DNA from: Gammaproteobacteria bacterium
GTDB taxonomy: Bacteria; Pseudomonadota; Gammaproteobacteria; Steroidobacterales; JABDMI01
DNA length: 35,658 nucleotides
Assembly (NCBI GenBank): GCA_013001575.1
Contig: JABDMI010000029.1
Span: 68,792 to 104,449 of the forward strand
Direction: 5' to 3'
The position numbers and the translations under genes were made by a program. A model generated the notes under the pieces. The model made no database searches, had not been told where the DNA came from, and saw only the letters and a program-made list of their open reading frames with translations. This document shows, piece by piece, positions 24,631 to 34,012 of the stretch (the stretch's first letter is position 1; each line of letters begins with the position of its first letter).

Positions 24631-26157
24631 ATGTGTGCAATCGTCGGATTATTTGGTCAATCAGCTGCGAATCAATCTATTTATGATGCGCTTACGGTAT
24701 TACAACACCGCGGACAGGATGCCGCCGGCATTGTTACCCTGGATGGCAAGAAATTGAATATGCGTAAAAGCAATGGACTGGTGCGCGATGTTTTCCATAC
24801 TCGCCATATGTTGCGATTACGTGGAAATATAGGCTTGGGCCATGTACGCTATCCGACCGCTGGTTGTTCCAGCTCGGAGGAAGCTCAACCCTTTTATGTG
24901 AATTCACCATTCGGAATTTGTCTTGCCCATAATGGGAATCTCACCAATGCAGAAGAATTGCGTAATGAGATCGAATCGCAAGATCATCGTCATTTGAATA
25001 CAAATTCCGACACCGAAGTATTGCTTAATGTATTTGCACATGAGCTTGACCGTTTTGGCAAGCGTTCCCTGAACGCCGAAGAGATCTTTACCGCAATTTC
25101 AAATGTGCATAAACGCTGCAAAGGTGGCTATGCGGTTATCTCCATGATACTCGGACATGGCATTGTGGCGTTTCGGGATCCCAACAGCATTCGACCACTG
25201 GTGTTTGGAAAGCGACTTGCTGATAACGGGAAACATGAATACATGATCGCCTCCGAGAGTGTGGCATTGGATTCTTTGGGTTTTGAACTAATTCGAGATG
25301 TTGGTCCGGGTGAGGGGATCTATATTGATCTGGACGGACAATTGCATATTCAATCCTGTGCACAAAAAACCTTGGCCAGTCCATGTATTTTTGAATACGT
25401 TTATCTCGCCAGACCCGATTCTGTAATCGATAATATTTCAGTGTATAAAGCACGTTTGCGGATGGGTCAAAAGCTTGGCGAGAAGATCCTGAAACTTAAG
25501 CCCGATCACGACATTGATGTGGTCATACCTATTCCAGACACCAGTCGGACCAGTGCCCTGGAGCTGGCCAATGCACTGGATGTAACTTTGCGCGAAGGTT
25601 TTATAAAAAATCGCTACATTGGCCGTACCTTTATTATGCCGGGCCAGGGCATGCGTAAACGCTCTATTCGGCGCAAGCTGAATGCTATTGATCTGGAATT
25701 CAAAGACAAAAATGTATTATTGGTCGATGACTCGATCGTACGCGGGAATACTTCGGAACAGATCATTAAAATGGCCAGAGAGTCGGGCGCTAAAAAAGTT
25801 TATTTCGCTTCGGCCGCACCGCCAGTAAGATTTCCAAACGTGTACGGTATCGACATGCCGGCAGCCACTGAATTAATTGCACACGAGCGAAGCGAAGAAG
25901 AGGTGTGTGACATGATCGGGGCCGACTGGTTGGTATACCAGGATTTGCCTGACCTGGTGGATGCGGTTTCGCATTACTCATCAGACATTTCCCAATTTGA
26001 TACCTCGTGTTTTTCGGGTGAATATATCACTGGCGACGTGACAGAAGATTACTTAAGTAACCTGGAAACCTTTCGTTCGGATGCTGCAAAATCCAAAAGA
26101 GAAATGGATGACGCAGACGAAGATGACGATGAAGTTAAAAGTTACGGATTTGGATAA
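24631..26157 (+). CDS. purF: Amidophosphoribosyltransferase
   Basis: PurF transfers ammonia from glutamine to PRPP, the first committed step of purine synthesis. The N-terminal nucleophile Cys2 is present (MCAIVGLFG, no propeptide). The glutaminase domain shows [19 protein letters not shown] and AHNGNLTNA; the phosphoribosyltransferase domain shows [13 protein letters not shown]. The 508 residues match E. coli PurF (505). The last 20 residues are very acidic. It ends the truA-purF series, and the Hpt gene starts only 32 nt later, so purF and the signalling cluster may share a transcript. Confidence 0.97.
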
Positions 26158-26189: not shown

Positions 26190-26492
26190 ATGAGTGAAAA
26201 AGATCATAAAATCGAAGAACACGACGAGGTCGTAAAAAATTTATTACCCGGTTACATCCAGCGCCGAGAGCTAGAGGTTTTTCAACTAAAGCGATTGCTG
26301 GAAGACGAAGAATTTGAAAAGATCCGTATCATTGGCCATAACCTCAGAGGTTCTGGCGGATTATATAGTCTTGCCGATATAAGTCACATAGGCGGCGAAC
26401 TGGAAACCAGCGCCTTGGCCAAACAAGCTGATCAAATTGCACAACATATCGATGCCTTACAAGCTTTCCTGATTACGTATACAGGCGCATAA
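26190..26492 (+). CDS. Stand-alone Hpt (histidine phosphotransfer) protein
   Basis: The 100-residue all-helical protein carries the Hpt motif IGHNLRGSGGLYSLADIS with phospho-accepting His50, flanked by a helix rich in Leu and Glu (REVFQLKRLLE-like segment; read RELEVFQLKRLLED). Hpt proteins carry phosphate from a hybrid kinase receiver domain to a response regulator. The cluster supplies both a hybrid kinase (31795-33354) and an OmpR-type regulator (27928-28638), so it may be the middle step of their phosphorelay (inference). It follows purF by 32 nt and precedes the receiver-kinase fusion by about 140 nt. Confidence 0.85.
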   Translation: MSEKDHKIEEHDEVVKNLLPGYIQRRELEVFQLKRLLEDEEFEKIRIIGHNLRGSGGLYSLADISHIGGELETSALAKQADQIAQHIDALQAFLITYTGA

Positions 26493-26593
26493 AAATTACT
26501 CACTTCGATTCAATCTATTCTAAAAGTTAGTACTTTATATATTTGCAAGCTAACAGAATTTACCTTGGCTTTCTGGCATAATGAGCTGTTATA

Positions 26594-26599
26594 TATAAT
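26594..26599 (+). promoter_or_regulatory. Possible -10 element of the receiver-kinase gene
   Basis: A perfect TATAAT lies just before the two candidate start codons at 26602 and 26635. If used, transcription starts near 26606, which would exclude the first ATG and give a 29-nt leader for the second. No good -35 box is seen. Confidence 0.35.
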
Positions 26600-26634
26600 A
26601 AATGTTGCGCAATTCACCTGGTAATTGGCTACTT

Positions 26635-27864
26635 ATGTCCCTAAAAGCTCTCATTATTGACGATTTCAACGATTTTCGTATGTTGCTATCGCACCACATT
26701 ACAACACAGTGGCCCGACGCGGTTGTGGTTGAGCATGACCCGGTGACCCAGGGTAAGCTCCCGAACCACTTTACCGGCTCTGGCTACGATGTGGTTCTCC
26801 TGGATCATGAGCTCGGGGAAGAGAATGGTCTCGATTGGCTACGTCATTTCAAACAGCGGCCCGGATTCCCGCCAATCATATTCATGACCGCAAAAGGTGA
26901 TGAGTTGCTGGCCGTAAAAGCGATCAAGTCCGGGGCTGAAGATTACATTCCCAAGCAAAAGATCACCCACGAATTTATTGTCCAGGCGATTAAAAACGCA
27001 GTCCGCAAAGGTAAACAGGATTCAGCCCTGTTTGATAAAAACCGGGATAAGGATGACAAAGCACCGAGTGACATCGATATTCCCGGCTATCGCATCATTA
27101 AACCCTTGTCGCGTGGAATGTCGTCTTCGGTTTTATTGGCGCATAGCGATAATCTTGATAAAGAAGTAGTTCTGAAGGTATTGTTGCAAATTCCCGAGAG
27201 CCAAAATGAGTCGGCCAGTGCGTTTGAACGCTTTATACAAGAGTATGAAGTGATTACCAAACTGAATCACCCGAATATCGTAAAAATCTATTCCCACGGG
27301 GCATCGGCCGATCAAGCCTTTATCGCGATGGAATATTTTGCCCGGGGTGACCTGAAAAAACGGCTCAAAGAAGTTATGTCGGCCTCTTTGGCAATTACCT
27401 ATTTACGTCAAATGACCGAGGCAATGTGTGCGTTGCATCAAGTGGGTATATTGCACCGCGACTTAAAACCGGCCAATGTCATGGTGCGTGAAGATGACAG
27501 TATCGCCTTGATCGATTTTGGCCTGGCCAAGCAGACTCAAGTCGATATAGATCTGACATTGACGGGCGAAATTTTTGGCACACCTTACTATATGAGCCCT
27601 GAGCAAGGACATGGAGACCCGGTTGATGAACGCAGCGATCTGTATAGCCTGGGAGTAATCTTCTATGAGATGCTGATGGGTAAAAAACCCTATGTTGCGG
27701 CAACGCCTTTGGCTGTCATCTATAAACACAGCCATGCGGATATCCCCTTTTTATCTGAACGCTTATCGCGCTACCAGCAATTGATCAATTTGTTAATGGC
27801 CAAAGACCCGGCCGACCGCCTACAAACCGCTCAGGACTTGCTTGATTATTTGGACAAAATATAA
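26635..27864 (+). CDS. Response-regulator receiver domain fused to Ser/Thr protein kinase
   Basis: A phosphorelay-controlled eukaryotic-type kinase. Numbering from ATG 26635 (409 residues): receiver domain 1-120 with acidic pair Asp9/Asp10, phospho-acceptor Asp57 (VVLLDHEL), Thr85 and Lys107; a charged linker; kinase domain about 145-409. The kinase has VVLK, HRDLKPANVM, IDFGLAK and GTPYYMSPEQ, so it should be active, but its glycine-rich loop is reduced (LSRGMSSSVLLA, one Gly). No membrane helix or C-terminal sensor is present, unlike PknB-type kinases. I prefer the second ATG because receiver domains start at the first strand (LKALIIDD); ATG 26602 would add 11 residues. Input probably comes from the neighbouring histidine kinase or Hpt protein. 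Targets are unknown; the coiled-coil and OmpA-type proteins next door are candidates. Confidence 0.92.
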   Translation: MSLKALIIDDFNDFRMLLSHHITTQWPDAVVVEHDPVTQGKLPNHFTGSGYDVVLLDHELGEENGLDWLRHFKQRPGFPPIIFMTAKGDELLAVKAIKSGAEDYIPKQKITHEFIVQAIKNAVRKGKQDSALFDKNRDKDDKAPSDIDIPGYRIIKPLSRGMSSSVLLAHSDNLDKEVVLKVLLQIPESQNESASAFERFIQEYEVITKLNHPNIVKIYSHGASADQAFIAMEYFARGDLKKRLKEVMSASLAITYLRQMTEAMCALHQVGILHRDLKPANVMVREDDSIALIDFGLAKQTQVDIDLTLTGEIFGTPYYMSPEQGHGDPVDERSDLYSLGVIFYEMLMGKKPYVAATPLAVIYKHSHADIPFLSERLSRYQQLINLLMAKDPADRLQTAQDLLDYLDKI

Positions 27865-27927
27865 GAATATGAATGGTTACAAATTATGAAAATTCAACAA
27901 AATCAATAACAAGGAATCAAAAGCATA

Positions 27928-28638
27928 ATGAGAATCGCCTATTTAGAAGATGATCTGGACCAATCTGCCGTAGTGAAGAACTGGCTGGAGTCGGCCGGTC
28001 ATGTGGTTATGCATTTTTCCTCGAGCAAGGATTTTTTGAAAAGCATCGGTCGCGACAGTTATGATCTAATGATCCTGGACTGGTTACTGCCCGGCGTCAG
28101 CGGAATCGAGGTTATGACCCATGTTCGTACCACCTTGAAAACCTACACGCCAATCTTGTTCGTGACCCAAAAAGACCAGGAAAAAGATGTGGTGGAAGCA
28201 CTGGAAAAAGGTGCCGATGATTTCATGGCAAAACCGTTAAGAAAACTTGAATTGCTTGCGCGGGTTACGGCGGTTACGCGTCGGGTGCTCGGCATGAACG
28301 AAGACCAATTACCGGAAGCGAGTCCGTACGAGTTTCGCGGTGATAGCACAACCGTTGTATTAGGTGATGAAGCGATTGAACTCACGCATCGCGAATACGA
28401 TCTGGCCAGATTTTTGTTCTCGCGTGCCGGGCGGGTTGTATCTAGAGCGCATATCCTGCAATCCATTTGGGGTTTTACCACAATGGATATGAACACCCGC
28501 ACAGTTGACACCCACGTGAGTCGTTTGCGTAAAAAACTAAAGATCGGCCAGGATAACGGATGGCAGCTAAATGCAATTTATCAGCACGGCTATCGTCTTG
28601 AAAAAAACGATGATTCCGAGTTGCATGCAAAAGCGTGA
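27928..28638 (+). CDS. OmpR-family response regulator
   Basis: A 236-residue two-domain transcription factor. The receiver domain (1-115) has Asp8/Asp9, phospho-acceptor Asp51 (LMILDWLLPG), Thr80 and Lys102; the C-terminal winged helix (about 135-228) has LTHREYDLARFLF, the recognition-helix region NTRTVDTHVSRLRKKL, and the final hairpin GYRLE. No histidine kinase is directly adjacent; the hybrid kinase is four genes downstream and the Hpt protein two genes upstream. It lies between the receiver-kinase fusion and the coiled-coil gene, with short gaps. The regulated genes are unknown; the cluster itself is an obvious candidate. Confidence 0.94.
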   Translation: MRIAYLEDDLDQSAVVKNWLESAGHVVMHFSSSKDFLKSIGRDSYDLMILDWLLPGVSGIEVMTHVRTTLKTYTPILFVTQKDQEKDVVEALEKGADDFMAKPLRKLELLARVTAVTRRVLGMNEDQLPEASPYEFRGDSTTVVLGDEAIELTHREYDLARFLFSRAGRVVSRAHILQSIWGFTTMDMNTRTVDTHVSRLRKKLKIGQDNGWQLNAIYQHGYRLEKNDDSELHAKA

Positions 28639-28694
28639 CAATTTATCAGTCCACAGAATTTATATTTAAACAAAATAGTATGTAGAGGTTTGTT

Positions 28695-29261
28695 ATGAGT
28701 ACCAAGAATGCAGATAACCAGGAAGCTAAAATTTCTGACCAGTTATCCGATAATAATGTCGAGAAGATCCGTGATATTTTATTCGGCGGCAATATGCGTG
28801 ATTATGACAAGCGCTTTGCCCGTCTTGAAGATCGTTTGGTCAGTGACATTGAGAGGCTTAGCCAGGATGTTTTTAAACGCTTCGAGAATCTGGACAATTA
28901 CATTCGTAAAGAATTTGAAGATTTGTCCAATAAATTGCATGCAGAAAAAACCGAACGCAAACAGGATCGCGAAGAAGGCGTGAAAGAATTGCAAAATCTG
29001 CAAAAGCAGACAGACAACAAGTTTGCCGATACTGAGCAGCAAAATGCCGCCGAAGCCAGAACCTTACGCAGCAGTTTGCACGAACAGGGTAATGAGTTAT
29101 TGGAAATGGTACGCAACACCCGTGACGAATTAATGACAAATATCAGTAAAGAAGCACGTGAGTTACAAGACATCAAAGTTGCACGTTCTGATCTGGCCGA
29201 ATTGTTCACCGAGCTGGCTTTACGCTTGAACCGTGATTTTGACTTGCCAGACTCTGAATAG
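28695..29261 (+). CDS. Coiled-coil protein sharing a DILF motif with the next gene
   Basis: I recognise no named family. The 188-residue protein is soluble and mostly helical: residues 22-50 contain VEKIRDILFGGNMRDYDKRF followed by LEDRL; residues about 45-165 are a long charged coiled coil; the C-terminus has a separate conserved-looking element (ARSDLAELFTELALRLN). A similar N-terminal motif (IDQIKDILFSNEKRALDALT) opens the next protein, suggesting a shared docking site or a common origin. A strong GAGG ribosome site 7 nt before the ATG supports the start. A role as a scaffold or adaptor in the cluster is inference from shape and context only. Confidence 0.8.
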   Translation: MSTKNADNQEAKISDQLSDNNVEKIRDILFGGNMRDYDKRFARLEDRLVSDIERLSQDVFKRFENLDNYIRKEFEDLSNKLHAEKTERKQDREEGVKELQNLQKQTDNKFADTEQQNAAEARTLRSSLHEQGNELLEMVRNTRDELMTNISKEARELQDIKVARSDLAELFTELALRLNRDFDLPDSE

Positions 29262-29287
29262 TCCAGTCTGGTTATTTTCTTTTTTTG
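29247..29287 (+). terminator. Terminator-like hairpin over the stop codon of the coiled-coil gene
   Basis: CCAGACT (29247-29253) pairs with AGTCTGG (29265-29271), a 7-bp stem that spans the stop codon, followed by a T-rich tract (29272-29287). It has the form of a Rho-independent terminator, yet the next gene of the cluster starts 18 nt later. Partial termination could set more coiled-coil protein than OmpA-type protein. Confidence 0.65.
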
Positions 29288-29304
29288 TTTGAGTTAGTCG
29301 GGAT

Positions 29305-31218
29305 ATGTCTGTGAATCAGATCGATCAGATCAAAGATATACTGTTTAGTAATGAAAAGCGTGCCCTGGATGCGCTGACCAGACGCATTGAGAAACGTGAA
29401 AGTCGGGTTGCTGATATGGCAGATGTGTTGCCTGAATCAATCGGACGCAGTCATGCTGACGGAGATCGCTTAAACAAGGCATTACGCATGCCGGTTGAGG
29501 AATGTTTAAAAGACTCGATCAATCGTGACCCGAAAACTTTTGCCGATGCATTGTTCCCCGTCATTGGTCCGGCCATAAGAAAGTCCATTGCTGAAACATT
29601 GAAAGCGTTCAGTGAATCAATCAACCAGGCGATTGAAGAAAAAACCTCGGTAAAAAGTTTTAAATGGCGCATGCAAGCTAAAAAGGCAGGCATCCCTTAT
29701 GCCCAGTTTTTGATTCAAAAGAATCTCGAATACCAGGTGGATCACGCTTACTTGATCCAGCCAAATACCGGCTTGCTAATATCAGACGCACACCGTACTG
29801 ATGCCGTACGTAAAGACGACGATGCTATCTCGGCCATGCTCACCGCAATTCAGGATTTCGTCAAAGAATCATTTGGAGATGAACAAGAGGGCACCCTGGA
29901 GACGGCCGACATTGGAAAATATACTTTGTGGACCATGCAGGGCCCACATGCCATGCTCGCCTGTGTGATCAACGGGGTGCCGCCACGCGGGTTACGCGAT
30001 GAATTGACCGAGGTGCTTGAGCGCATTCATTTGCAATATGCCGAAGCCCTTGAATCCTACGATGGTACCCCCAACGACAAACTGAATGCGATCGAACCAC
30101 TATTGGATGACTGCTTATTGCAGCAGGCTAAAGATGGTGAAGACAGTGTTGCTAAGAAAAAAGGCATGGGCGCATTTGGAATTATTTTACTTTTGGGCCT
30201 GGCGGCTGCTCTGTGGTTCGGTTGGCAAAAATACCAGTTTCAAGATAAAGCGTCCAAATACGTTGCAGCACTGGAGCAAGAGCCTGGCATATTCATTACC
30301 TCCAGTGATATCGCCAAAGGCCGTTTGCAAATTAAGGGCCTGCGTGATGCAAGTGCGGTGAAGCCGGAACAACTGGCAGCAAGCATCGGCTTCGCAGCCG
30401 AAAAACTGGATTTGAATTTACAACCTTTTCATTCACTCGAAAAGAAAATTCAGCAGCAGCGGATCACATCGCAGATCACTCTACCCGAGGGTGTTGAACT
30501 TGAATTGAGCGACGATGGTGTAGTGATATTCTCGGGAGCGGTCAGTCCTGAATTCAAGCAAATGGCTGAAGAGAATCTGGATGGCATGCTTGGCGTTAAT
30601 CAATTGGATTTTGGAAAAATTGTTTATTCAGATGAAAAATTGTTGGAAAAAGCCAATGAATTATTAAACCCGCCTGAGTCAGTGTTCATGACAGTACAAG
30701 ACGGGACACTTAAAGTTCAGGGTGAGGCGCCATACGCCTGGAGACAGACACTTGAAAACATCGATACACAAATCGAGGGATTAAATTCTGTTGAAAAATC
30801 AGTACTGTTAGTGTCTGAAGTAAATCGTATTCAACAGGTTCATAATGCGCTTAATAATGAGAGTATTCATTTTGTGTGGCGCACACGTCTAGCTGAAGGC
30901 GAAGAGGACAAGCTGGTAAACATTTCTGCTCAACTTAAGGAATACGGTTCGCAACTTGAAGCTCTGCAACTCGAACCGGAAATTGTGTTAACCGGCTTTA
31001 CCGATAATACCGGTACCGATACGCAAAATACTGAATTGTTATTGGAACGTGCCTTGTACATCAAGGGTCGTTTAGTCGGCCTGGGGGTACGCTCAAACTG
31101 GCTCTTTGTACGCGCCGGCGAGATTTCAGGCGCACGTGGCGTGGTCAATGAAGAACAAAGGAAAGTGAGCATTACTTTGAACCTGGATAGATCCCTATTG
31201 GAAGACGTAATAAAATAA
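29305..31218 (+). CDS. Inner-membrane protein with roadblock-like cytoplasmic part and OmpA-type peptidoglycan-binding end
   Basis: The 637 residues read: an N-terminal motif (IDQIKDILF) shared with the previous protein; a helical region with DALFPVIGPAIRKSIAETLK (81-100); residues about 145-250, which look like a roadblock/longin domain (YLIQPNTGLLIS, then DDDAISAMLTAIQDFV, then YTLWTMQGPHAMLACVIN); one membrane helix (about 290-306); a periplasmic region with two beta-alpha BON-like repeats (LPEGVELELSDDGVVIFSGA; VFMTVQDGTLKVQGEAP); and a C-terminal OmpA-like domain with VLTGFTDNTG and NTELLLERALYIKGRL, keeping the Asp and Arg that bind diaminopimelate. It has no signal peptide, so the N-terminus should be cytoplasmic. 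It would connect peptidoglycan to a cytoplasmic signalling site. Domain ends and the roadblock reading are inference. Confidence 0.85.
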   Translation: MSVNQIDQIKDILFSNEKRALDALTRRIEKRESRVADMADVLPESIGRSHADGDRLNKALRMPVEECLKDSINRDPKTFADALFPVIGPAIRKSIAETLKAFSESINQAIEEKTSVKSFKWRMQAKKAGIPYAQFLIQKNLEYQVDHAYLIQPNTGLLISDAHRTDAVRKDDDAISAMLTAIQDFVKESFGDEQEGTLETADIGKYTLWTMQGPHAMLACVINGVPPRGLRDELTEVLERIHLQYAEALESYDGTPNDKLNAIEPLLDDCLLQQAKDGEDSVAKKKGMGAFGIILLLGLAAALWFGWQKYQFQDKASKYVAALEQEPGIFITSSDIAKGRLQIKGLRDASAVKPEQLAASIGFAAEKLDLNLQPFHSLEKKIQQQRITSQITLPEGVELELSDDGVVIFSGAVSPEFKQMAEENLDGMLGVNQLDFGKIVYSDEKLLEKANELLNPPESVFMTVQDGTLKVQGEAPYAWRQTLENIDTQIEGLNSVEKSVLLVSEVNRIQQVHNALNNESIHFVWRTRLAEGEEDKLVNISAQLKEYGSQLEALQLEPEIVLTGFTDNTGTDTQNTELLLERALYIKGRLVGLGVRSNWLFVRAGEISGARGVVNEEQRKVSITLNLDRSLLEDVIK

Positions 31219-31280
31219 TGTATTTGCTGAAAGCCGTTCAGTAAATAACAATAACTATAAAAAAACCGGGCCATACAACA

Positions 31281-31784
31281 ATGGAAACTATATCAAGAAA
31301 AATCTGCATGGTTGGTGATTTCGGCGTTGGTAAAACCAGCTCTGTATCCCGCTTTGTGCATAATGTTTATTCAGAAAAATACCAGACCACCATCGGTGTC
31401 AAGGTCGATACTAAAGAAGTCGATTCGGCTGATCAAAAAGTGAAAATGGTTATCTGGGATATTGCTGGCCGGAATAAATTCGGTAATGTTGAATTTACCT
31501 ATTTACGCGGTTCGGCCGGCTATTTGTTAGTAGTCGATGGCACACGCTCTATTACTCTCGATACTGCAATGGCGCTGCGCACCTCGATTGAAGCGCGTTA
31601 TGGTGAATTACCTTTTGTCATGCTTTTGAATAAAGCCGATCTCGAAGATAGTTGGCAGATCGATGACGCCACAATCGAAAATTTACGTAAAGAAGGCATA
31701 CCGATATTCATTACCAGTGCAAAAACCGGCGATCAGATCGAGCAGGCTTTTATTAAGCTCACAGAACTTTTGCAAGCATCATAG
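31281..31784 (+). CDS. Ras/Rab-like small GTPase
   Basis: A 167-residue single-domain GTPase close in pattern to eukaryotic Rab and bacterial Rab-like proteins. G1 is GDFGVGKT (12-19), switch I TTIGV (36-40, like the Rab TIGV), G3 WDIAGRNKF (59-67), G4 NKAD (117-120) and G5 SAK (146-148). Ras Gln61 is replaced by Arg64, which should lower intrinsic hydrolysis or require an unusual activator. There is no C-terminal cysteine for lipid attachment and no membrane helix, so location must come from partners. It lies 62 nt after the OmpA-type gene and 10 nt before the hybrid kinase gene. It is clearly not an Era, Obg, Der or other housekeeping GTPase. Role unknown. Confidence 0.92.
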   Translation: METISRKICMVGDFGVGKTSSVSRFVHNVYSEKYQTTIGVKVDTKEVDSADQKVKMVIWDIAGRNKFGNVEFTYLRGSAGYLLVVDGTRSITLDTAMALRTSIEARYGELPFVMLLNKADLEDSWQIDDATIENLRKEGIPIFITSAKTGDQIEQAFIKLTELLQAS

Positions 31785-31794
31785 TTAGCACAAT

Positions 31795-33354
31795 ATGAAT
31801 AAATTGCCGTCCCAACTATCTGGCGAGATATTAGCAAACCTGTTTCATGCCTATACCTTGTTCTGTGGCGAGGTAGATCCCCAGGGAAAACTGGTTCACA
31901 TGTGGGGCAATAACGAGTTTTACGGCCTGCACGACTGGCACATCGGTTTTGACCTGTTAGAAGTGGATTTTCTGCTTGGATTGCCCATTGATGAAGAATG
32001 GGTCATGCGCGACGTCAATGTTAGCCCCAACAATCATGCCGATATTTACTTTACCCCGACCTCACGCGGCAAACGCTATATTTTATTCGTTTCGACAGAA
32101 GGATCCATCGAACGTCGTCGTGAGAATCAACAACGCGGCAACGAATTGACCCTGATGGTCGAACAAAACAAGCAGTTGATCACCGAGCTCAAACAGGCCA
32201 AGTCAACACTCAGTAGTGAAAATATTTCCAAATCGGAATTTATTGCCGGCATGTCGCATGAATTCCGCACCCCGCTTACCTCAATCATGGGGTATACCGA
32301 ACTCATCAGTGAGCAACGCGGACTCACTCCGGAAACCCAGGAGCATCTGGGTGCAATAGAACGTGCCTCACAACATTTACTTTCCCTGGTCGAGAATTTA
32401 CTTGATCAATCCCAGTTCGAATCTAACCAGTTTAAATTGCAGTTAAATAATATTTCCCTGGAAGAATTACTCAACGAAGTGTCGGCGGTGATGGCGCCGC
32501 TTGCCGGGGCCAAGGCTCTGTCATTCTCGGCGAGTATTTCGGCCCGCTGTGAGCGTTTTGCGTTTATGGACAATGTTCGTGTCAGGCAAATTTTGATCAA
32601 TTTACTTGCCAATGCAATTAAATTTACTCAAGAAGGTGAGGTCTCGATCAATCTGGATGAGGAAGACGGACACTTTGTTTTCATGGTTTGCGATAGCGGC
32701 CCCGGTATTCCCGAACTCGAACAAGAGAATATATTCAAGCCGTATCAACGTTTACACGACAGCGCAAAAATTTCCGGTGCCGGATTAGGATTAAGTATCA
32801 CCCGGCAACTGGTTAGCCGTATGAGTGGCAAAATTGAACTTGAATCGACATTAGGTACAGGAAGTACTTTCATCGTTAAGTTACCAATTCGTGCGGCAGA
32901 AGAAGATTATATCTATCAAAAAACCCAGCAGATGACAGTCACGGAATTGCAAATGGCTAAAGAGATCAAAACGATCTTGCTGGCAGAAGACAATCCGGAC
33001 ATCAGTAATCTGTTAAAAATTCTTTTGCAACGCTCGGGGTTCGAAGTGACGATTGCCGAAAATGGTCATCTGGCTTTGGCTTATTCCAGAGCACGGGTTT
33101 ACGACCTGGTCATTACCGATCTGCACATGCCCATTCTGGATGGGCGGGCACTGGTCCAGTTTTTACGCAATGAAGGCTACACAAACCCGATCATTGCACT
33201 AACCGCATCGCATAAGAAGAACGAACGCGAAGAATTATTTGCCGCCGGATTTTCCGAGTTTCTAACCAAACCGATCCAAATGCCGGATCTGCTGGCAACC
33301 CTGGATCGTCTGGCACATGAAAGTGACAGTAATAGTGCAGTCTCAAGTCAATAA
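31795..33354 (+). CDS. Soluble hybrid histidine kinase with C-terminal receiver
   Basis: The 519 residues comprise an N-terminal domain of about 20-105 that looks PAS-like (FCGEVDPQGKLVHMWGNN ... GKRYILFVSTE); a coiled coil (105-145); HisKA with MSHEFRTPLTS, phospho-His155; an ATPase domain with LANAIKFT (Asn273), CDSGPGIP and GAGLGLS; and a receiver with Glu/Asp pair at 398-399, phospho-acceptor Asp442 (VITDLHMPILDG), Thr470 and Lys492. No membrane helix is present, so it senses a cytoplasmic signal or a protein partner. It starts 10 nt after the GTPase stop, so these two are probably co-translated. It is the only histidine kinase of the cluster and could feed the Hpt protein (inference). 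Confidence 0.93.
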   Translation: MNKLPSQLSGEILANLFHAYTLFCGEVDPQGKLVHMWGNNEFYGLHDWHIGFDLLEVDFLLGLPIDEEWVMRDVNVSPNNHADIYFTPTSRGKRYILFVSTEGSIERRRENQQRGNELTLMVEQNKQLITELKQAKSTLSSENISKSEFIAGMSHEFRTPLTSIMGYTELISEQRGLTPETQEHLGAIERASQHLLSLVENLLDQSQFESNQFKLQLNNISLEELLNEVSAVMAPLAGAKALSFSASISARCERFAFMDNVRVRQILINLLANAIKFTQEGEVSINLDEEDGHFVFMVCDSGPGIPELEQENIFKPYQRLHDSAKISGAGLGLSITRQLVSRMSGKIELESTLGTGSTFIVKLPIRAAEEDYIYQKTQQMTVTELQMAKEIKTILLAEDNPDISNLLKILLQRSGFEVTIAENGHLALAYSRARVYDLVITDLHMPILDGRALVQFLRNEGYTNPIIALTASHKKNEREELFAAGFSEFLTKPIQMPDLLATLDRLAHESDSNSAVSSQ

Positions 33355-34012
33355 GCTAAACCCCGATCAACACTCACAAGTTCCCGTTGCGATCAGTGAG
33401 TTCTTGCATTGCCTGACACCGGATGCCTGGTTACAAACCGCGTGTACGAAACTGCCGGAACTATTGATCGATCACGCCAATTGCGAAAAAAAAGCGGCCT
33501 CAACCGCCATCAGTCTGATGTTTCGGTATTCAGAAAAGGCGGATATCTGTTATCGCATGTCGCGTCTGGCGCGTGAAGAACTGCGTCATTACGAGCAAGT
33601 GTTGAAAATAATTCAGCAACGGAATATTCAACTTACCATTCTTAAACCCTCAAGATACGCCGGTTCCCTGATGCAGCATGTGGCATTTGAAGAACCTCAT
33701 CGCTTGCCAGAATTGTTGATTGTCGGCGGCATCATCGAGGCGCGTTCCTGTGAACGCTTTGCAGCGCTTATTCCTTACCTGGATCAGAACGACGAGAGTG
33801 AATTGGCCAAGTTCTACCGTGGATTACTGGCCTCGGAAGCGCGGCATTTTGAGCATTATCTGGAATTGGCCAAAACATACAGTGCGGATGTGTTTAGCTC
33901 TGAAGAGTTTGATCAAAAAGTCCAATTCTTGTTAGACCAGGAAGCGCAATTGATCCAGGCCGTGGATAGTGAATTCCATTTTCATAGCGGTAAGCCGGTC
34001 ATACCTGACTAG
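33317..34012 (+). CDS. miaE: tRNA 2-methylthio-N6-isopentenyladenosine-37 hydroxylase
   Basis: MiaE is a non-haem diiron monooxygenase that hydroxylates the isopentenyl side chain of modified A37 in tRNAs reading UNN codons, needing oxygen. The 231-residue protein has a ferritin-like helical bundle with iron ligands in the expected order: HANCEKKAA, REELRHYEQV, GIIEARSCERF and ASEARHFEHY, two of them EXXH-type. The start ATG overlaps the hybrid kinase by 38 nt in another frame; a GTG two codons later is an alternative. No ribosome site is seen, so translation may depend on coupling. Its substrate needs miaA and miaB, which are outside this window. Confidence 0.92.
   Translation: MKVTVIVQSQVNKLNPDQHSQVPVAISEFLHCLTPDAWLQTACTKLPELLIDHANCEKKAASTAISLMFRYSEKADICYRMSRLAREELRHYEQVLKIIQQRNIQLTILKPSRYAGSLMQHVAFEEPHRLPELLIVGGIIEARSCERFAALIPYLDQNDESELAKFYRGLLASEARHFEHYLELAKTYSADVFSSEEFDQKVQFLLDQEAQLIQAVDSEFHFHSGKPVIPD

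Follow-up and report, generated by a model that had tools for sequence, protein, structure and literature searches.

Seven genes that read in one direction with short gaps (26190-33354), between purF (24631-26157) and miaE (about 33317-34012) in a gammaproteobacterial contig, bring together phosphorelay proteins, a receiver-Ser/Thr kinase, a Ras-like GTPase and an OmpA-type membrane protein. The question is whether they form one signalling system and, if so, which of them belong to it. The window analysed, the whole stretch of 35,658 nucleotides, comes from a draft genome of 2.25 Mb that is 96% complete. All seven open reading frames of the original prediction were recovered on the forward strand with the domains it had named, and a sequence check found every phospho-acceptor it had listed (Table 1). 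All four acceptor residues of a His-Asp-His-Asp phosphorelay are thus present in the encoded proteins. The acceptor of the receiver kinase is Asp57 when counted from the ATG at 26635 and Asp68 with the start at 26602; its kinase motifs VVLK, HRDLKPAN and DFG are intact. The Pfam match of the Hpt protein reached 23.8 bits, just under the cut-off of 24.6. Promoter and terminator signals in the cluster region showed no excess over shuffled sequence, and co-transcription is suggested by strand, short gaps and conserved order only. A defence-system search of the cluster returned only generic kinase and receiver matches.

Table 1. Features of the gene cluster, in window coordinates.
Feature	Position	Strand	Residues and basis
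Hpt phosphotransfer protein	26190..26492	+	His50; Pfam Hpt E 5e-5
Receiver-Ser/Thr kinase	26635..27864 (alternative start 26602)	+	Asp57; Pfam Response_reg+Pkinase
OmpR/PhoB-type response regulator	27928..28638	+	Asp51; Pfam Response_reg+Trans_reg_C
Coiled-coil cytoplasmic protein	28695..29261	+	Family alignment
Predicted longin-TM-OmpA protein	29305..31218	+	Pfam OmpA; AF2; Foldseek
Predicted longin/roadblock domain, OmpA protein aa 140-250	29722..30054	+	AF2 + Foldseek
Transmembrane helix, OmpA protein aa 288-306	30166..30222	+	Hydropathy
Rup-type Rab-like GTPase	31281..31784	+	Pfam Ras E 7e-32; G3 WDIAGR
Soluble hybrid histidine kinase	31795..33354	+	His155, Asp442; Pfam HisKA+HATPase_c+Response_reg

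The core of the cluster was defined as the coiled-coil protein, the TM-OmpA protein, the Ras-like GTPase and the signalling output. Presence and absence were scored in 59 genomes of the order, of which 18 (seven families) carry the core and 41 (nine families) lack it. The GTPase was found in 17 and the OmpA protein in 18 of the 59, in the same genomes and as adjacent genes; in the one genome with an OmpA protein and no GTPase match (G001), the contig ends within the OmpA gene. The Hpt protein (E<=1e-8) was present in 16/18 core-positive versus 0/41 core-negative genomes and the OmpR-type regulator (E<=1e-70) in 18/18 versus 0/41. Fisher p-values for co-occurrence with the core were 1e-12 and 2e-15, respectively, uncorrected for ancestry; as the genomes share ancestry, with seven families having the core and nine lacking it, these values are descriptive only. 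Both genes are thus inherited together with the core, which makes the unit a GTPase phosphorelay of six genes, composed of the core, the Hpt protein and one specific OmpR-type regulator.

The receiver kinase was found in 46/59 genomes, 17/18 with the core and 29/41 without. Of the four core-negative genomes inspected, three (L171, L175 and L176) have it right after purF and one (L169) between purF and miaE, all without a Rup cluster (the name is explained below). In a Woeseiaceae-type genome (G008, L173) it is again located between purF and miaE, with the Rup cluster on a different contig. This wide presence and the purF site without the cluster rule it out as a specific member of the module. 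Since it holds the purF-adjacent position in genomes that have no cluster, it is an older purF neighbour which the module flanks. The original prediction of a complete circuit was therefore borne out as a linked, conserved and co-inherited signalling set, but not for this kinase, although it may also receive phosphate from the relay. Variants of the Hpt region were also seen. A glycerate-kinase-type gene (DUF4147-MOFRL) can stand between purF and Hpt (compare L049:6331-7527), and in one lineage it is fused in frame to an Hpt domain (L051:3875-5452, also L061). In the Acidobacteria locus L127, receiver and Hpt domains are fused into the kinase, matching the separate Hpt protein of the window.

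Conservation of the gene set and its order in other genomes had been named as one check on the grouping. The order purF-Hpt-receiver kinase-OmpR-coiled coil-OmpA-GTPase-hybrid kinase-miaE was found whole or nearly whole in several families, and Woeseiaceae-type genomes carry the block Hpt-OmpR-coiled coil-OmpA-GTPase-kinase at another site, without the receiver kinase. A single-sequence scan of genome contigs with the OmpA protein gave no match. A query with the OmpA alignment led to 259 places in GTDB genomes, and the best 80 of these include relatives of Thiomargarita and Beggiatoa, Methylococcales, Chromatiaceae, Desulfobacterota, Acidobacteria, Gemmatimonadales, a Zetaproteobacterium (Ghiorsea) and cyanobacteria. 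Across the class, the whole OmpA alignment matched 333/369 genomes, but the result was swamped by generic OmpA domains, so that only the roughly 28 matches reaching the N-terminal region were counted. Six-frame search of the best 80 of the 259 places showed the GTPase gene immediately downstream of the OmpA gene at 67 of them, the coiled-coil gene upstream at 70 and the output N-terminal region downstream at 58; several of the loci that depart from this pattern are on short contigs or at contig ends. The median gap between OmpA and GTPase genes is -4 nt. In the four protein families, pairwise distances are correlated (r 0.72-0.85), whereas permutations reached at most 0.21. With the same order in relatives and the core recurring across phyla, the cluster is not a chance array. 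Some departures in layout were also observed: Thiomargarita/Parabeggiatoa loci (L097, L098, L104) have a tandem pair of OmpA-type proteins, some exceeding 1000 aa and carrying long insertions before the longin-like domain, and in some Desulfobacterota-type loci (L093, L101, L135) the GTPase gene is on the strand opposite the coiled-coil/OmpA pair.

The GTPase of the window carries the Ras-like motifs G1-G5 (GDFGVGKTS, TTIGVK, WDIAGR, NKADL and TSAKT), and its nearest solved structures are Rabs. The catalytic G3 glutamine is missing, with glutamine after DxxG in 0/72 members of the family. It is the only small Ras-type GTPase of the genome, a second PF00071 match lying inside a 616-aa open reading frame. 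The P-loop, GDF(A/G)VGKTS (31314-31340), has a Phe at the position of Ras Gly12, which should hinder an arginine finger of the Ras type.

These features lead to a group of bacterial GTPases catalogued in 2014 by Wuichet and Sogaard-Andersen without an assigned function, the Group 1 Rup systems (PMC4316618). Group 1 Rup GTPases have no G3 glutamine and are uncoupled from MglB, and their genes accompany a coiled-coil protein and a protein with a domain of unknown function, a TM segment and an OmpA domain (PMC4316618). As output they typically have a histidine kinase or a diguanylate cyclase/phosphodiesterase, and one glutamine of the output protein is invariant (PMC4316618). The Group 1 rup gene of Nostoc punctiforme is reported to be transcribed (PMC4316618). 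By motifs and gene content the core of the window matches this neighbourhood, and every feature that could be tested was found. The original prediction knew of no described system with this set; for the core, this does not hold. In text searches of a collection of openly available papers, neither later work on Rup GTPases nor work joining longin and OmpA with GTPases was found.

The OmpA protein consists of cytoplasmic helices and a predicted longin-like domain, one TM segment, BON-like repeats and an OmpA peptidoglycan-binding domain. Its TM helix is the sole membrane segment among the cluster proteins and is preceded by KKK, so the N-terminal 280 residues should be cytoplasmic. At the other end, D567, N575 and R582 of the OmpA domain are conserved; proteins of the OmpA family require such residues to bind peptidoglycan. 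AlphaFold2 modelled the whole protein with a mean pLDDT of 85.8 and a beta-beta-alpha-beta-beta-beta-alpha domain at aa 141-250, and TRAPP subunits appeared among the OmpA-type structure matches of this model. A separate model of aa 112-275, built from 84 sequences, reached a pLDDT of 85.5 and a pTM of 0.76. In a Foldseek search of the PDB with this model, the 50 matches listed all belong to longin, roadblock or adaptin types. At their head stand Mon1-Ccz1 in complex with Ypt7, the TRAPP subunit Bet5, Ragulator, TRAPP-Ypt1 and MglB, with E values from 8.5e-5 to 1.4e-3. The matches are significant but moderate, with TM of about 0.4-0.6 and 8-22% identity. By sequence, the most recurrent family was PF19036 (Fuz_longin_1), in 5/84 members with a best E of 4e-4; the OmpA protein of the window itself had no PF19036 match, and the families listed for this protein did not include Robl_LC7. 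The longin and roadblock folds are related to each other by circular permutation (PMC3521125), and we describe the cytoplasmic domain as a predicted longin/roadblock fold, claiming neither of the two.

The coiled-coil protein has the N-terminal motif NV(D/E)KIR(D/E)I(L/I)FGxx(M/I)RDY in its family alignment. A similar short motif is located near the N-terminus of the OmpA protein (KIRDILFG at 28752-28808, QIKDILFS at 29314-29352). The hhalign comparison of the two gave an E of 0.003 and a probability of 9.5%, which is no more than suggestive of a common binding motif.

From these parts we propose a Group 1 Rup GTPase system to which a phosphorelay of its own has been added, running from longin domain to GTPase, hybrid kinase, Hpt and OmpR-type regulator, a reading to which we give even chances. 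The OmpA protein would be anchored in the peptidoglycan, cross the inner membrane once and expose its longin-like domain to the cytoplasm, where this would bind the Rab-like GTPase and set its nucleotide state, as a GEF, a GAP or both; the coiled-coil protein is probably a scaffold. The GTPase, lacking the catalytic glutamine, would gate the hybrid kinase by way of the N-terminal region of this output. Phosphate would then pass from His155 to Asp442, to His50 of the Hpt protein and to Asp51 of the OmpR-type regulator, which would change transcription upon the state of the envelope or of turgor. We infer the binding of the GTPase by the longin domain, the direction of the signal and the envelope stimulus.

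For the step from GTPase to kinase, the output protein is informative. Residues 1-140 of the hybrid kinase (31795-32214) are common to other Rup outputs, and the same region heads hybrid kinases, HD-GYP proteins and class III cyclases across lineages. With exchangeable enzymes behind a constant N-terminus, it reads as one GTPase-linked input region. No family was matched when it was compared with Pfam and the PDB, and that it is PAS-like is a guess. The same region is the basis of the main rival of the proposed mechanism, in which the kinase acts on the GTPase and this region is a GAP that gives its glutamine in trans, with the GTPase, together with the OmpA protein, as the envelope effector. 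Gln112 is conserved in 57/61 output proteins and Gln113 in 58/61, which fits a GTPase family that lacks its own, and such a role was proposed for the invariant glutamine by Wuichet and Sogaard-Andersen (PMC4316618). However, the swapping of the output enzyme between clades is the pattern of a GTPase-controlled output, and a dedicated Hpt protein and OmpR-type regulator are co-inherited downstream. We consider this reversed direction rather unlikely; a GAP role of the N-terminal region and an output activity are, moreover, not mutually exclusive.

A second alternative concerns the longin-like domain, which might serve only localisation or dimerisation, the GTPase being regulated elsewhere and the whole forming a membrane- and wall-tethered signalling platform. 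The longin fold is also found in proteins without a role in GTPase regulation, such as SNAREs and adaptins, and both were among the fold matches listed. Most of the top matches listed are nevertheless subunits of GTPase regulators (Mon1-Ccz1, TRAPP, Ragulator, MglB and CPLANE), and the genetic coupling to the Rab-like GTPase is strict, which makes a mere scaffold improbable.

The original prediction had compared the cluster with the MglA/MglB/Frz polarity system. This likeness is weak by sequence and survives in the MglB-like predicted fold of the cytoplasmic domain of the OmpA protein. MglB stands at rank 6 among the fold matches listed, and a FimV-like gene is located upstream of the cluster within the window, both of which would suit a polarity or motility module. 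The G3 motifs of MglA are TVPGQ or GTPGQ (PMC4316618), whereas the Rab-like GTPase of the window has WDIAGR, of the form WDxAG without glutamine. A Robl_LC7 (roadblock) search of the whole genome gave no match, and genomes that lack the cluster have the run truA-accD-folC-cvpA-purF as well. A polarity module is thus very unlikely. A chance neighbourhood without functional linkage describes the receiver kinase in part, widespread and at purF independently as it is, but is hardly credible for the rest, given the co-occurrence of Hpt and OmpR genes with the core and an order conserved at different genomic sites.

As to what the proposed phosphorelay might sense, the neighbours in one genome group provide a hint. 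In Woeseiaceae-type loci the MscL gene follows the kinase gene (8 of the best 80 of the 259 places), and many of these loci have a multi-repeat MS_channel_1st_1 protein, DUF4332 and DUF937 upstream of the module. This flanking is seen at locus L082 (L082:13881-14297 and L082:6716-8179), with equivalents in L056, L068, L070-L073, L076, L079-L081, L086, L087 and L089. Such neighbours point to turgor or envelope tension; they come from this one group of genomes, and none is adjacent in the window.

The analysis adds three things to the catalogued system: a phosphorelay co-inherited with it, the placing of the receiver kinase outside the specific unit, and a longin/roadblock prediction for the membrane partner that stays constant. 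For Rup proteins neither a regulator nor a function had been known, and ancestral Rup GTPases have been proposed as the source stock of the eukaryotic Ras-superfamily GTPases (PMC4316618). The predicted domain makes the membrane partner a candidate Rup regulator, through which the questions of regulation and function become testable by single-protein assays, and for one clade the added Hpt and OmpR proteins supply a concrete route to an output. Prokaryotic roadblock GAPs have been discussed as the ancestors of longin domains (PMC3521125), which Asgard archaea are known to have (PMC10933270). More tentatively, and with chances somewhat short of even, many bacterial phyla may possess a Rab-like GTPase paired in an operon with a wall-bolted longin GEF/GAP, sensing the envelope and fitted with interchangeable outputs. 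If so, a Rab/longin switch exists outside eukaryotes and Asgard archaea, and its spread across bacterial phyla bears on the origin of the Rab-longin pairing.

Compared with known systems, the cluster is closest to Group 1 Rup, with which it shares the GTPase without G3 glutamine, the coiled-coil protein, the unknown domain-TM-OmpA protein, the output with an N-terminal glutamine and the absence of MglB. It differs in the added Hpt protein and OmpR-type regulator, in the longin/roadblock prediction for the unknown domain, and in that the outputs of its relatives also include HD-GYP proteins and class III cyclases. MglA/MglB(/Frz) likewise places a small GTPase beside a roadblock/longin-fold protein and two-component proteins, but the GTPase of the window is Rab-like, there is no MglB by sequence, the fold partner is fused to TM-OmpA and the cluster has no Frz-type genes. 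The actinobacterial conservons (Cvn) also unite a histidine kinase, a small GTPase and a roadblock-fold protein in one operon. There, the GTPase is of MglA type and the MglB-type roadblock protein is free, whereas the window cluster contains no free gene of this kind; its longin-like domain is anchored to the wall, and its phosphorelay is complete. With the eukaryotic longin Rab GEFs (Mon1-Ccz1, TRAPP and FUZ/CPLANE) it has the predicted fold and the Rab-like partner in common, while the window protein is bacterial, single and envelope-anchored, and its exchange activity putative.
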